From positions 1 to 15,123 of the forward strand of contig JAGREZ010000257.1 of NCBI GenBank assembly GCA_020446285.1: a stretch of DNA of 15,123 bases, in the 5' to 3' direction. Below, one piece after another: positions 1-4,407 of this stretch. Positions within the stretch are counted from its first letter, which is position 1. Each line of letters starts with the position of its first letter. The notes under the pieces were generated by a model. It made no database searches, was not told the origin of the DNA, and was given only the letters and a program-made list of their open reading frames with translations. Position numbers and translations under genes: made by a program. The DNA comes from Geminicoccaceae bacterium (GTDB lineage Bacteria; Pseudomonadota; Alphaproteobacteria; Geminicoccales; Geminicoccaceae).

Positions 1-148
1 ACCCCTTCTCGCGGGCGATCACGAGAGGAGCGTGGTCCGGATTGACGAACCAGTCCAGCATCACCGTGAGCCTTTCGGCGGCAAGCGCCGGGCCGGTCAG
101 CACGAGCGCCGCCAGAAATGCAAGCCAAGGAAGGGGAAAAATGTGCAT
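1..148 (-). CDS. thiY: ThiY-like ABC transporter substrate-binding protein, N-terminal fragment
   Basis: Only the first 49 codons are in the window; the gene continues past the left edge. The start ATG at 148 shares one base with the thiX stop codon (TGATG), so the two genes are translationally coupled. Residues 1-24 form a Sec-type signal peptide (short N-terminus, hydrophobic core, ALAA at the end). The mature protein begins ERLTVMLDWFVNPDHAPLVI, followed by AREKG, the characteristic opening of the NMT1/THI5-like domain found in ThiY, which binds formylaminopyrimidine or other pyrimidine precursors of thiamine in the periplasm. Family and position behind thiX agree; the exact ligand cannot be told from this fragment. 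The ATPase gene (thiZ) would be expected further left but is not visible. Confidence 0.85.
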   Translation of the reverse strand, partial: MHIFPLPWLAFLAALVLTGPALAAERLTVMLDWFVNPDHAPLVIAREKG

Positions 149-945
149 CAGACAGACTCCCTCGTGCTGTCACCGGTTTCATCGAACAGGGATTCGGACT
201 GCCATGGCGCAAGGCGCCGCGCCGCGCGGTCCACGGCCAGCCAGAGCAGCAGCGCCATGGCGGCGAGAACGAGCAGGCTCGCGAACATCAGGTCGATTTG
301 CATGCGCGCATTGGCGTGCAGCATGAGATAACCGAGACCGCCCGAAGAGCCGACCCACTCGCCGACGACCGCACCGATAGGTGCCACCGATGCGGCCACC
401 CGAAGGCCCGAGCCGAGCGCCGGCAATGCCGCGGGGATGCGGATGAGGCGAAGCGTATCCAGCCGCGTCGCTCCGAGCAGCCGGACAAGATCGAGAATTT
501 CCGGATCGGCGCGCCTGAGCCCGTCATAGAACGAAGCCGTGACCGGAAAGTAGATGATGAGCACCGCCATCGCGATCTTCGAGGTCATGCCGTAGCCGAG
601 CCAGAGGACGAGCACGGGTGCCAGCGCAAAGACCGGCAGCGCCTGACTGATGACCAGCAGCGGCAGCAGCCAGCGCCTCGCACCCACGAAACTCGCGAGC
701 AGGAGCCCGGAGCCGATGCCGACGAGCGCGCCGATGACGAAACCCAGCAGGATCTCGACCGCCGTGATCCATGCGTGCGATGCGATCAGCGGCAACCGCG
801 TGAACAGGGCCGACACGACCGGCGACGGCCCCGGCAGGATGTAGGGTGGCGCCCCGCTCACACTCACCACCACCTGCCATGCCGCCAGCAGCCCGGCGAC
901 GGTCAGACATGGCCGGATCCAGCCACGCACGTCAACTGCACGCAC
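148..945 (-). CDS. thiX: ThiX-like ABC transporter permease
   Basis: Inner-membrane permease of the ThiXYZ / nitrate-taurine (SsuC-like) family, expected to carry a thiamine pyrimidine precursor delivered by the ThiY-type protein encoded next. About six hydrophobic segments are visible. The EAA loop that contacts the ATPase lies near residues 153-174 (VRLLGATRLDTLRLIRIPAA). An early PPYILPGPSPV segment after the first membrane helix is typical of the family. The start is uncertain. The frame stays open to a TTG at 999, but that would overlap the upstream gene by 68 nt. I chose GTG at 945 (265 aa, 14-nt overlap, GGGAG about 12 nt upstream); GTG at 930, just after the upstream stop, is also possible. 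Function assigned from family and operon context. Confidence 0.85.
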   Translation of the reverse strand: MRAVDVRGWIRPCLTVAGLLAAWQVVVSVSGAPPYILPGPSPVVSALFTRLPLIASHAWITAVEILLGFVIGALVGIGSGLLLASFVGARRWLLPLLVISQALPVFALAPVLVLWLGYGMTSKIAMAVLIIYFPVTASFYDGLRRADPEILDLVRLLGATRLDTLRLIRIPAALPALGSGLRVAASVAPIGAVVGEWVGSSGGLGYLMLHANARMQIDLMFASLLVLAAMALLLWLAVDRAARRLAPWQSESLFDETGDSTRESV

Positions 946-2038
946 GTCCCGACCGGGCTCCCAGAAAGGACTGCAGCGAAACCTCCGACCAGGGCGCAAG
1001 CTCGCCCAGCATGGCCGTGTAGGAATCGTGGATCCGCTTCTCGATACCGCCCCTGGCGGCGAAACCGGCCATCACCTCGCCGGCCGACTCGCGCAGGGCG
1101 GCAATGACGTCGGACGGAAAGGTCCGAAGCTGCACGCCGTGATCGTTCACCAGAGAGCGCAGGGCGGCGGCATTGCGGCGCACACCCTCGGCGAGCGCGA
1201 AGGCGGCCTCCGCCCGGCAGGCATTTTCGACGATGGCGGCAAGCGATGGCGGCAGGCTCTCGAAGGCCGCGCGATTGACGATGCACTCGCCGCTGCCGTT
1301 GGGCTCATGAATGCCGGGACCATAATAGAAGGGTGCCGCCTTGTGGAAACCCAGCGCCAGATCGGACGACGGGCCGGCGAATTCGGTGGCGTCGATCACG
1401 CCGCCCTGCAATGCCGGCAGCACCTCGCCCGGCGGCAGTGATACCTGCACCACACCGAATGGCGCATACATCTCGCCACCGAGACCGGGCATGCGGAACT
1501 TGAGTCCCTTGAGGTCGGCAAGCCCGTAAATCTCGTTCTTGAACCAGCCGCCCATGGACATGCCGGTATTGCCGGCGAGGAAGGGCTTCACGCCATAGTC
1601 GCCATAAAGCTCGTCCCAGAGCGCCTGTCCGCCGCCCTGCTCGATCCATGCCACATGCTCGAGCGGCGTGAGACCGAAGGGCACGGCAAGGAAGAACGGT
1701 GCCGCCGGCATCTTGCCCGACCAGAACACCGCCGCCGTGTGCCCCATCTCGGCGACCTCGCCGCTCACGGCATCCATGACCTCGAATGCCGGCACGATCT
1801 CGCCGGCGGCGAAAAGCTCGATCTCCAGCCCGCCACCGGACATGGCGGTGATGCGGTCGGCAAGGCGTTGCGCGGTGACACCCGGCCCCGGCAGGTTGCG
1901 CGGCCATGACGTCACCATGCGCCACCTGACGGGCGTCTGCGCGCGGACCACCGACGGTGCCGCGACCATGCCGCCGGCGGCAGCCGCCCCGGCCAGACCG
2001 AGACCGGCCCCAAGGGCCTTGCGACGGTCGAGACTCAT
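932..2038 (-). CDS. TRAP-type (DctP/TakP-like) periplasmic solute-binding protein in the thiamine operon
   Basis: 368 aa. The N-terminus has a twin-arginine-like signal: DRRK, a long Ala/Gly-rich hydrophobic stretch, then VVRAQ as the likely cleavage site. The mature part matches the TRAP DctP family, 2-keto-acid (TakP) branch: VTSWPRNLPGPG, LADRITAMSGG, FAAGEIVPAFEVMDAVSGE, GNTGMSMGGWF (157-167 in the frame read from the GTG at 2044, two residues upstream), LKFRMPGLGG with the ligand-binding Arg, and GVIDATEFAGP. ATG at 2038 is the start: it overlaps the thiD stop by 4 nt (ATGA) and has GGGGAGGAG 5 nt upstream. TRAP binding proteins normally work with DctQ/DctM membrane proteins, and none is visible nearby. 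Its place in a TPP-riboswitch operon between thiD and thiX suggests a role in uptake of a thiamine-related compound, but that is inference. Family assignment is firm, ligand unknown. Confidence 0.88.
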   Translation of the reverse strand: MSLDRRKALGAGLGLAGAAAAGGMVAAPSVVRAQTPVRWRMVTSWPRNLPGPGVTAQRLADRITAMSGGGLEIELFAAGEIVPAFEVMDAVSGEVAEMGHTAAVFWSGKMPAAPFFLAVPFGLTPLEHVAWIEQGGGQALWDELYGDYGVKPFLAGNTGMSMGGWFKNEIYGLADLKGLKFRMPGLGGEMYAPFGVVQVSLPPGEVLPALQGGVIDATEFAGPSSDLALGFHKAAPFYYGPGIHEPNGSGECIVNRAAFESLPPSLAAIVENACRAEAAFALAEGVRRNAAALRSLVNDHGVQLRTFPSDVIAALRESAGEVMAGFAARGGIEKRIHDSYTAMLGELAPWSEVSLQSFLGARSGRACS

Positions 2039-2856
2039 GAACACTCCTCCCCTGCTTTCGGCCAGAACCGATGGAAATGATGCACCGGCCCGTGACCGGC
2101 GCCGATATCCAGACTGTCGGCGGCGATGATGGCCGCGGTGATGTAGTCCTTCGCCATCCGGACCGCTTCGGCGAGGGAGAGACCGCGCGCGAGGCCGGCG
2201 GCGATCGCCGAGGACAGGGTGCAGCCGGTGCCGTGGGTGTTACGCGTTTCATGCCGGACTGTCTCGAACCAGGTCTCGCGCTCGCCGTCGAACAGCAGGT
2301 CCGGGCTCGTGCCCGCATCGAGATGCCCGCCCTTGAGCAGCACCGCCGGAGCGCCGAGCCCGACCAGTTCGCGGACGGCCATGCGCATCTCCTCGCGCCC
2401 GCCGATCACGGCACCGCCGAGCAGCACGCCCGCTTCCGGAAGATTGGGCGTGATGAGCGAGGCGAGCGGCATCAGTTCGTCACGAAGCGCCGTCACCGCA
2501 TCGTCGCGAAGCAGCCTGTCGCCGCTCTTGGCGACCATCACCGGATCGAGCACAACCCGGCGCGGCTTCCAGTAGCGCAGGCGCTCCGCCACCGCGACGA
2601 TCGCCTCCACCCTGCCCAGCATTCCGATCTTCACCGCGTCTGCGCCGATATCCCCCATCACCGCATCGATCTGCAGGCCGATGAATTCCGGATCGACATC
2701 GAGGATACCGGTGACCGCCACGGTATTCTGCGCTGTCAGCGCCGTCATGACCGACGTGCCGAAGACACCGAGTGCCGAGAATGTCTTGAGATCGGCCTGG
2801 ATGCCGGCGCCGCCGCCACTGTCGGATCCGGCGATGGTGAGTGCGGTTGCCGTCAT
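2035..2856 (-). CDS. thiD: Hydroxymethylpyrimidine/phosphomethylpyrimidine kinase ThiD
   Basis: 273 aa, the usual single-domain ThiD length. It phosphorylates HMP and then HMP-phosphate to HMP-diphosphate, the pyrimidine donor for thiamine phosphate synthase, in the cytoplasm. Ribokinase-fold signatures are complete: [20 protein letters not shown] near residues 9-28, [12 protein letters not shown] at 101-112, ITPNLPEA at 135-142, LLKGGH at 173-178 and the anion-hole/catalytic motif [20 protein letters not shown] at 206-225. The family tail GHGPVHHFH is present at 254-262. The ATG overlaps the thiE stop by 4 nt and its own stop overlaps the next start by 4 nt, so translation is probably coupled throughout. 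Confidence 0.97.
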
Positions 2857-3494
2857 TGCAGGGCCCCGTCCACGACCGCACGCAAACGCCGGGTCGCCGC
2901 CTCGATATCCTCCGCCATGAAAATGTCGGAGATCACCGCCACCCCCCGCGCGCCGGCCCCGATCACCGATGCGGCGTTGGCATGGTCGATGCCGGCGATG
3001 CCGCAGGCCGGCACGCCGTCGAGCAACGGCAGGATCCGGCCGAGGCCGGACGGCCCGATCGGCGGATCCTGCGGGTCTTTGCTGGACGTCGCGAATACCG
3101 GGCCGATGCCGACATAGTCGACACCCTCGCGCGAAATCGCCCGCGCCTCGTGCGCGTGATGCACGGTCACACCGACGATGCGCTCGGAACCCAGCAGCCG
3201 GCGGGCGTCCCGCGCGTCCATGTCAGTCTGTCCGACATGGACGCCCGCAGCACCGCAGGCGAGTGCCACATCGACACGGTCATTGATGAGGACAGGAATG
3301 CGGAACGCATGCAGCCGCCGGATCACCGCGCGGGCGAGATCGACGAGCGCACGCGTTTCGACATCCTTGTGGCGGAGCTGGACGAGGGTCGCCCCGCCCC
3401 GTGCGGCCGCCTCGACACAATCGAGCGGATCGCGCCCGGCGGTTCGCGTCGGATCGAGAATGGCATACACACGGAGATCGACTTCTGGTTTCAC
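2853..3494 (-). CDS. thiE: Thiamine phosphate synthase ThiE
   Basis: 213 aa TIM-barrel enzyme that joins HMP-diphosphate and hydroxyethylthiazole phosphate to give thiamine phosphate. Visible motifs are QLRHK at 39-43 (diphosphate/Mg site), INDRVDVAL at 70-78, GVHVGQTD at 84-91, [14 protein letters not shown] at 127-140 and the phosphate-binding C-terminal strands CGIAGID and GVAVISD. The segment [10 protein letters not shown] at 108-117 stands where many family members have GVS-type residues; this is ordinary variation. The start ATG overlaps the thiM stop by 4 nt and the stop overlaps the thiD start by 4 nt, placing it in the middle of the coupled thiMED block. Confidence 0.96.
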
Positions 3495-4216
3495 GTTACC
3501 TTTGCCCGTTCGCGAATATCGTCAATGTCGATGCGATACAGCGCATCGAGGAGATGAGCCGGGAAGGTTCCCGGTCCAGCCGCTTTCTCCGCCGCCATCT
3601 CGCCGGCGATCCCGTAGATGAGAATGGCGCTCGCGGTGGCGAGGAACGCATCGGCTTCGACGGCGAGGAATGCACCCGTCAGCGCCGAGGCAGCGCAACC
3701 CATCGCCGTCACCCGGTCCATGAGCGGATGCCCGTTGGCCATCTCGAAACGGCGTCCGCCATCGGTGACATGATCGACCTCGCCGGTTTCGGCGACGACG
3801 ATACCGGGCGCTCCCTCAAGCGTTCCCACCTCGTCGCGATTGCAGCGGATCACCGCCGGACGCAGGTCCATGAGCATCCGGGCGAAGGCGAGCCTGCGGC
3901 CCGAGCGGTCCACCTTGACCGGATCGAGCAGCCAGGGCCGGCCGAGCCGGTTGGCCGCCGCGATCGCCATGGGCACGCTGATCTTGCGCCAGGGATCGAG
4001 CTGCCCGAGATTGACGACCAGCGAACGGGCGGAGCCGACAAACTCCTCGATCACCGTGTCATCGATGGTCATGGACGGTATGGCGCCGACGGCGAGCAGC
4101 ACGTTGGCGGAGACGTTCATGGCGACGAAATTCGTCAGCACATGTACCTTTGGCCGCTCCTCGCGCACTTGACGGAGACTGGCCGCGGCCCTGGTACACA
4201 AGTCTTCGGGTGTCAT
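3491..4216 (-). CDS. thiM: Hydroxyethylthiazole kinase ThiM
   Basis: 241 aa cytoplasmic kinase that phosphorylates salvaged 4-methyl-5-hydroxyethylthiazole, supplying the thiazole half to ThiE. Family features are VHVLTNFVAMNVSANVLLAV at 24-43, the trimer/substrate-site region AIPSMTIDDTVIEEF, WLLDPVKV at 95-102, the RVTAMGCAASALTG motif at 168-181 with the catalytic Cys at 174, and the C-terminal GPGTFPAHLLDALY. ATG at 4216 was chosen because GGGAGGAAAC stands directly in front of it; a TTG 18 nt upstream would place the Shine-Dalgarno inside the gene. It is the first gene behind the TPP riboswitch, so its ribosome-binding site is the controlled one. Confidence 0.96.
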   Translation of the reverse strand: MTPEDLCTRAAASLRQVREERPKVHVLTNFVAMNVSANVLLAVGAIPSMTIDDTVIEEFVGSARSLVVNLGQLDPWRKISVPMAIAAANRLGRPWLLDPVKVDRSGRRLAFARMLMDLRPAVIRCNRDEVGTLEGAPGIVVAETGEVDHVTDGGRRFEMANGHPLMDRVTAMGCAASALTGAFLAVEADAFLATASAILIYGIAGEMAAEKAAGPGTFPAHLLDALYRIDIDDIRERAKVT

Positions 4217-4304
4217 GTTTCCTCCCGCTCCCAACCTGAACTTCCGGATATCCGGCCAGGCCGTTCTAGGCTTCGGGAGGCGGGAAGGCTTGCGATTTGC
4301 AAGC
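4214..4304 (-). promoter_or_regulatory. thiM: Riboswitch expression platform: SD / anti-SD pair before thiM
   Basis: The mRNA-sense strand carries CGGGAGG (4221-4227) as the thiM Shine-Dalgarno and a perfect complement CCTCCCG (4274-4280) about 45 nt upstream, so the two can form a 7-bp helix hiding the start site. Between aptamer and anti-SD lies a small hairpin (4288-4304, GCTTGC/GCAAGC arms), and between anti-SD and SD a perfect 12-bp palindrome CCGGATATCCGG (4244-4255). No U-run follows a strong hairpin, so control at translation rather than transcription termination is inferred, as is usual for Gram-negative TPP switches. Confidence 0.7.
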
Positions 4305-4310
4305 GATCAT

Positions 4311-4398
4311 CCCAATTCCCTACGCCGGTATGATCCGGATCAGGTTCCACGGGTTGGCCAAGCCTCTCAGTCCGGAAATCTCCGGACACCCCGTTGAG
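4311..4398 (-). ncRNA. TPP riboswitch aptamer (THI element)
   Basis: Read on the minus strand, the segment has the conserved THI-box core: ACGGGGTGTCC, then ACTGAGAGG, then ACCCGTGGAACCTGATC and CGGATCATACCGGCGTAGGG. CUGAGA is the pyrimidine-sensing loop and the GCGUAGGGAA block the 3' part of the diphosphate-sensing arm. P1 can be closed by CUCAA (4394-4398) with UUGGG (4311-4315, one G-U pair). The optional P3 arm is short here (UCCGG AGAUU CCGGA type hairpin). It lies about 95 nt upstream of thiM and should repress the whole operon when thiamine diphosphate is abundant. Confidence 0.97.
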
Positions 4399-4407
4399 AC
4401 GAACCGA

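Follow-up and report, generated by a model that had tools for sequence, protein, structure and literature searches.

A TRAP-family receptor gene of alphaproteobacterial thiamine operons and its candidate role in thiazole import

The gene dctP, which encodes a TRAP-type solute-binding protein, is a real and widespread component of thiamine salvage, undescribed as far as our searches reach. We propose that its product works in the periplasm as the receptor of an import system for thiazole salvage and captures thiazole-2-carboxylate (cHET) for a DctQM membrane pair encoded elsewhere, a reading to which we give a probability of roughly 0.55. The gene lies in a window of 15,123 nucleotides from a Geminicoccaceae bacterium, which is the whole of contig C619 in a 619-contig, 87% complete assembly.

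A TRAP receptor gene within a TPP-riboswitch operon

The operon is encoded on the minus strand and reads, after its riboswitch, thiM-thiE-thiD-dctP-thiX-thiY, with dctP as the fourth gene:

4299..4403, minus strand: TPP riboswitch heading the operon (RF00059, 70.1 bits, gathering score 54.3)
3491..4216, minus strand: thiM, hydroxyethylthiazole kinase (NF006830, 224.6 bits, cut-off 180; PF02110)
2853..3494, minus strand: thiE, thiamine phosphate synthase (TIGR00693, 189.6 bits)
2035..2856, minus strand: thiD, HMP/HMP-P kinase (TIGR00097, 337.1 bits)
932..2038, minus strand: dctP, the gene in question, TRAP family with a twin-arginine-type signal (PF03480)
148..945, minus strand: thiX-like ABC permease, followed by thiY (PF00528, BPD_transp_1, 105 bits on 148-912)
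1..148, minus strand: 5' part of a gene for a thiY-like (NMT1/THI5) binding protein, first 49 residues, then the contig end

A sequence-only reading of the window had described a TRAP-type DctP inside a TPP-riboswitch thi operon, joined to thiD by an ATGA overlap and without DctQ or DctM beside it, and all three points were confirmed. DctP matched PF03480 at 142.9 bits (cut-off 23.4) over profile positions 14-281 of 286, and the riboswitch, thiM, thiE and thiD were recognized by the models given above. The dctP start codon (ATG, 2038-2036), preceded by GGGGAGGAG, shares an ATGA with the thiD stop, and neither DctQ nor DctM was found among the listed reading frames of the operon or in profile scans of its genes. 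DctP stayed below the NCBIfam DctP names (TRAP_S1, 47.1 of 50 bits; dctP, 45.1 of 175), and ThiM scored 192 bits against TIGR00694, below that cut-off of 256. The twin-arginine-type signal of DctP has its RR at residues 5-6, a pair invariant in 30 aligned orthologues, and the mature protein would start at about residue 35. DctP is 87% identical to one named as from a Geminicoccaceae bacterium.

The riboswitch at the head of the operon was the sole TPP riboswitch detected in this 87%-complete assembly, with 150 of 167 candidates scored. For the thiX-like permease, a GTG overlapping dctP is a plausible start, and none of the NCBIfam permease names was reached above cut-off. The thiY-like fragment translates as MHIFPLPW...LTVMLDWFVNPDHAPLVIAREKG, and its intact counterpart in a related locus (L028) matched PF09084 at 235 bits.

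Conserved linkage and riboswitch control in relatives

A scan run on a single genome from each species confirmed 359 relatives, and the best 80 of these were retained. In 77 of these best 80, thiD lies directly upstream of dctP on the same strand. The gap is at most 100 nt in 74 of the 77 pairs, with a median of 0, and 38 pairs overlap, 21 of them by exactly 4 nt (dctP starts being estimates). The gene order thiD-dctP-thiX, which the sequence-only reading had proposed to search for in other genomes, was thus recovered in its thiD-dctP part, while the full trio occurs in a minority. Since ThiX was matched in just 14 of the 80 loci, the link of thiX to dctP is a local feature. Some relatives carry a fuller order, dctP-(tenA)-thiZ-thiX-thiY, and in five Hyphomicrobiales-type loci (L042, L070, L071, L096 and L099) no thi gene or DctQM was found 3' of dctP. 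The operon starts with dctP, still behind a riboswitch, in two f14-family genera and in G073; the order is dctP-thiM-thiE-thiD-tenA in f14 and dctP-thiM-thiE in G073, where no thiD was found adjoining.

Riboswitch control was surveyed with a purpose-built covariance model, which detected a riboswitch in 75 of 88 sources. These 75 make up all but one of the 76 operon sources in which the upstream sequence was long enough. Ten of these 75 positives were the training set, each first detected by Rfam at gathering score, and two sources from the same genome (L080 and L132) are counted separately. Nine of the 13 riboswitch-less sources start within the operon or immediately ahead of it, three (L047, L097 and L101) have no thi genes, and the last (L102) gave no riboswitch match in 742 nt of upstream sequence. 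One further locus (L031), whose contig starts inside thiD, was omitted from the survey, and a separate look there gave no riboswitch. The idea that dctP is a chance neighbour of the thi genes was rejected in view of its conserved linkage to thiD and the riboswitch across relatives.

Association of the operon with the absence of ThiG

Whole-genome scans were made for 50 of the 80 kept-locus genomes. Among the 51 genomes reached via loci, ThiC was found in 23 and full-length ThiG (E<1e-90) in six. Weak partial ThiG matches just over the Pfam cut-off (~23 to 29 bits) in 13 further genomes were treated as other barrels and excluded from the ThiG counts. Thi4 was considered as an alternative thiazole source and rejected, with no match at E<=1e-10 in any of the 51 genomes (scored on up to 43 first-look candidates in each genome).

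These genomes were set against a class-wide sample of 289 genomes, in 16 of which the gene order around the best matches was read (20 regions). The operon was present in eight of the 16, in addition to the window's genome. The resulting set of 56 operon genomes comprises the locus set and these eight, and includes one genome counted twice, as G011 and G246; the two entries have identical match coordinates and are apparently the same genome. The 280 background genomes may still hide operons whose DctP is less than ~48% identical, and an operon DctP at 49% identity in G208 indicates that divergent members exist.

Within the 56 operon genomes, 18 have ThiC and no ThiG, six have both, 32 have neither and none has ThiG alone. 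The corresponding counts for the 280 background genomes are six, 90, 118 and 66. True ThiG was thus unfound in 50 of the 56 operon genomes, with ThiC kept in 24. ThiG is missing in 18 of the 24 ThiC-positive operon genomes, compared with six of the 96 ThiC-positive background genomes (Fisher p = 1e-11), while the difference in ThiC overall gave p = 0.23, kinship being ignored in both tests. The isolate Pseudolabrys sp. Root1462 (L099) is one of the ThiC-positive, ThiG-negative strains. The 32 operon genomes without either pathway are uninformative as to which half is imported. Assembly gaps are a poor explanation, as they would not easily produce 18 ThiC-positive, ThiG-negative genomes and zero reverse cases. 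Family f59 offers a contrast among close genomes: in G208 the operon occurs together with ThiC and ThiG is missing, whereas G108 and G288 carry the two enzymes and gave no match to DctP at E<=1e-60. The dctP operon is strongly tied to thiazole auxotrophy, and the tie is not strict because six operon genomes (G305, G019, G029, G036, G039 and G047) keep both ThiC and ThiG.

Binding pocket and proposed ligand

In a tree built by a quick method from 30 of the 78 first-set operon DctPs (77 loci and the window) plus eight more, the operon DctPs formed one clade of their own (41 rows, 100% SH-aLRT), next to the TakP receptors and outside the clade that the solved 2-oxoacid receptors form. The nearest solved structures are receptors that bind 2-oxoacids with Na+ or Ca2+. 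TakP (SmoM) of Rhodobacter sphaeroides (PDB 2hzk/2hzl), a 2-oxoacid TRAP receptor, shares the carboxylate-binding Arg and the cation-binding Glu214 with the operon DctPs, which differ from it in their separate clade and in replaced pocket residues; unlike takP, the operon dctP genes sit with thi genes and not with DctQM. Among PDB entries, the closest in sequence was Bordetella bronchiseptica BB0280 (4yic/4yzz, E 6e-72, barely ahead of 7ug8), which has the same fold. It is 37% identical to DctP and clusters with TakP in the tree. BB0280 was reportedly crystallised with picolinic acid, a heteroaromatic 2-carboxylate.

According to excerpts of PMC1839085, TakP holds pyruvate via Arg177 and Tyr100, and its cation is bound by Gln156, Glu214, Glu240 and the Trp215 carbonyl. 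These positions were compared in an alignment of 88 clade members with 19 comparison proteins (L132, from the same genome as L080, being dropped). Arg177 (Arg182 in the window's protein) and Glu214 are conserved in all 88 members. The position of Glu240, which is Glu in all 19 comparison proteins, is Glu in 43 members, including this protein, and Lys in 45, while position 156 is Cys in 41, Gln in 28, Ser in 17 (including this protein) and Asn in two. Judged from this alignment, the cation site is not uniform across the clade, since position 240 is Lys in 45 of 88 members and position 156 is not Gln in 60. TakP 156 and 240 correspond to DctP residues 161 and 245, and Cys156 is found in 41 of the 45 Lys240 members, as if Lys replaced the cation; in the Lys240 subclass, to which the Rhodoplanes elegans protein (L070) belongs, the bound cation is perhaps replaced in this way.

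Five columns split the clade sharply from the other proteins (at least 95% of members versus at most 15% of the 19 others), namely TakP positions 47, 120, 215, 242 and 243, of which 47, 215 and 243 are named pocket or cation positions of TakP and 242 is adjacent. Position 245 is Gly, Ala or Ser in all 88 members and Tyr99 is retained in none. Relative to TakP, the window's protein carries Ile47>Pro, Tyr99>Val, Gln156>Ser, Trp215>Phe, Pro243>Gly and Val245>Gly. The Pro243>Gly change and the small residue at 245 should enlarge the pocket, and because Arg177 and Glu214 are kept in all 88 members, the ligand of both the Glu and the Lys subclasses is very probably a carboxylate.

In excerpts of PMC5899164, the product of the bacterial thiazole synthase is described as a 2-carboxylate phosphate and a ThiE substrate, and the use of cHET in the alga Ostreococcus requires ThiM. 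The N3 and the carboxylate of thiazole-2-carboxylate may mimic the geometry of a 2-oxoacid, and by this analogy a TakP-like site would be a natural starting point for such a receptor. We infer the export route, the identity of the ligand, the use of a cation, the DctQM partner and transport itself, and the proposed mechanism would run as follows. When TPP is low, the riboswitch would permit expression of the operon, and exported DctP would capture in the periplasm a thiazole precursor of B1, of which carboxythiazole (cHET) is the most likely. Arg182 would clamp its carboxylate and, in the subclass of the window's protein, a cation would sit at Glu219/Glu245, as in TakP with a 2-oxoacid. DctP would then pass its cargo to a DctQM pair whose genes lie elsewhere. 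The thiazole would be phosphorylated by ThiM, and ThiE would couple the product to HMP-PP, which would come either from ThiC or, after import through ThiXYZ, from ThiD. Taken alone, the assignment of cHET as the ligand stands at about even odds. The fuller proposal, of a high-affinity cHET importer whose receptor has a remodelled cation-2-oxoacid site with Lys240 replacing the cation in about half of the members, is more tentative and falls a little short of an even chance.

The same role could be served with the uncharged thiazole HET, or intact thiamine, as the ligand and with the Arg/Glu site reused in another way. ThiM is named for HET, and the logic of the operon and the absence of ThiG fit HET and cHET equally. 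HET, however, has no carboxylate for the invariant Arg that forms the carboxylate clamp of TakP, and an Escherichia coli thiG mutant is satisfied by sub-picomolar cHET while its need for HET is about a million times higher (excerpts of PMC5899164). Intact thiamine would make ThiM and ThiE needless. We consider either of these ligands unlikely.

A further alternative, which the sequence-only reading had raised as a TPP-linked need for 2-keto acids, is that DctP remains a TakP-like receptor supplying pyruvate or branched oxoacids to TPP enzymes. It draws on the nearest solved relatives, which bind 2-oxoacids, and on the conserved Arg and Glu. Against this, 15 other alphaproteobacterial TakP-like proteins, several of them adjoining DctM genes, fall outside the fully supported operon clade; Tyr99 is absent throughout that clade, positions 47, 243 and 245 are replaced and the cation site is altered in about half of the members. 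Repression of carbon-source uptake by TPP would also make little sense. The 2-keto-acid option is further weakened by the concentration of the operon in ThiG-less genomes, which need no DXP for thiazole, and by the changed pocket, and we regard it as quite improbable.

Pyrimidine supply as a probable separate branch

TPP riboswitches were listed in 33 genomes with the clade's DctP, and 16 further regions of 3 to 7.5 kb were read, the position of each remaining listed riboswitch placing it at the operon, thiC or thiG. In eight of the ten ThiC-negative operon genomes read (G020, G027, G030, G033, G034, G042, G044 and G073), thiX, thiY or thiZ lies behind a further TPP riboswitch, and in the other two (G178 and G328) no thiX, thiY or thiZ was found behind the riboswitches read. 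ThiXYZ, an ABC importer of pyrimidine precursors, shares TPP-riboswitch control with DctP, and in the window thiX and the start of thiY are co-located with dctP. It differs in being of ABC type, with an NMT1/THI5-type receptor that belongs to a Pfam family other than that of DctP. Two side observations were made in the same survey: TPP riboswitches of f14 precede a membrane-protein-like frame without a query match (L243 and L244, in G178:C80 and G328:C20), and a second thiM with its own TPP riboswitch occurs in genomes already equipped with a thiM-dctP operon (L233 and L242, in G037:C28 and G178:C25).

These patterns bear on whether DctP binds a pyrimidine precursor such as HMP or FAMP. The adjacency of thiD in 77 of 80 loci, the presence of tenA in some operons and the two ThiC-negative genomes without riboswitch-led thiXYZ would all suit such a ligand. 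Conversely, the 24 operon genomes with ThiC can make HMP, the combination of ThiG without ThiC occurs in 0 of 56 operon genomes and in 66 of 280 background genomes, and in ThiC-negative genomes thiX, thiY or thiZ stands separately in eight of ten or within the operon. A pyrimidine ligand is disfavoured by this co-occurrence of ThiC and ThiG, and we hold it very unlikely. Pyrimidine supply, through thiC or through thiXYZ, looks like one TPP-controlled branch and the thiM-dctP module like another, and therefore thiazole is the likely cargo of dctP. Overall, we consider a role of DctP in thiazole salvage or import quite probable.

A dctP that merely hitch-hikes in these operons, with no role in thiamine metabolism, would account for the three of 80 loci (L047, L097 and L101) in which the clade's dctP has no thi neighbours. 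However, these Xanthobacteraceae copies nest inside the operon clade, the linkage outlasts rearrangement (dctP being last or first) with overlap in 38 of 77 thiD-dctP pairs, and the riboswitch travels with dctP, which makes this explanation highly improbable. The copies lie at L047:7962-9056, L097:1160-2239 and L101:1910-3022, and their neighbours appear by eye, without a profile, to be hemF-like and luciferase-like or FAH-like. The clade's DctP also occurs outside any thi operon in G048, a ThiG-positive genome. Lastly, the earlier suggestion that DctP hands its ligand to ThiX, and thereby to a ThiX-ThiZ ABC importer, follows from the adjacency of thiX in the window and is hardly credible, given that ThiX was matched in just 14 loci as against 77 with thiD-dctP, that thiXYZ already has ThiY as its receptor, and that TRAP receptors and ABC receptors of the ThiY type are different families.

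Candidate membrane partners

DctM (PF06808) was found in all 50 genomes searched, and the window's assembly contains DctM genes adjoining other DctPs. Nine DctM queries (E<=1e-8) gave no match in the flanks of the 80 loci, over up to 8 kb and less at contig ends. Two f14 genomes (G178 and G328) carry a DctQM pair next to dctP-thiM-thiE-thiD in divergent orientation. A search of 34 other genomes gave relatives of this DctM at 61-72% identity in six, and the relative in the window's genome is 51% identical. G030 and G033 carry a 63%-identical DctM with a DctQ. No DctP could be recognised across the 12 kb read there, a further DctM-like stretch lying 4 to 5 kb off, and this DctP-less arrangement would fit an unlinked pair. 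The divergent f14 pair and the DctP-less relatives of it in Stappia sediminis and Hongsoonwoonella zoysiae are thus the leading candidates for the partner. In each of the 14 other genomes read, the window's included, the f14-type DctM adjoins a different DctP, and a single DctM orthologue as universal partner was rejected on the grounds that its relatives mostly stand beside another DctP.

DctQM genes with a THI element of their own, a possibility raised by the sequence-only reading, did not materialize: none was found behind the TPP riboswitches of the 16 further regions read, which span 3 to 7.5 kb. The related TTT family is known to include receptors that lack a linked membrane component (excerpts of PMC5812351), and we consider it likely that DctP works with an unlinked DctQM. 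Of the three roles proposed at the outset, supply of a thiamine precursor to an unlinked TRAP permease has the best support, and the precursor has been narrowed to the thiazole half. In one locus, a cobalamin riboswitch (L141:8455-8666) was seen shortly downstream of a TakP-like DctP-DctM set.

Literature context and significance

Our literature searches, which had most subscription journals outside their scope, found no description of a thiamine-linked TRAP system. If the proposal is true, DctP would to our knowledge be the first case of a vitamin precursor handled by a TRAP system. ThiW, a predicted thiazole transporter, belongs to a protein class different from that of DctP; thiazole uptake under TPP control has been proposed for it, as we propose here for DctP. 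In excerpts of PMC6478431, thiW is a TPP/HMP-PP-controlled gene of a Clostridium. No thiamine-linked TRAP system appears in the accessible portions of PMC12542648, PMC3766115, PMC9870897 and PMC12577307, the supplement of PMC3766115 covering 19 TPP-linked transporter orthologues among which one may be mentioned, and the term 'thiamin' is absent from the main text of the TRAP/TTT review PMC5812351. The survey gene lists of PMC10881298 and PMC12236431, in the portions available, name pyrimidine and thiamine transporters and neither a thiazole transporter nor a TRAP system.

Thiazole auxotrophs are called rare in an excerpt of PMC10881298, while carboxythiazole is called a key currency in excerpts of PMC5899164, which state that the sequence identity of its transport systems is unknown. 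Microbes exchange the halves of vitamin B1, and DctP is a good candidate for the missing importer of the thiazole half in alphaproteobacteria. A marker gene for thiazole scavenging would make thiazole auxotrophs readable from genomes.
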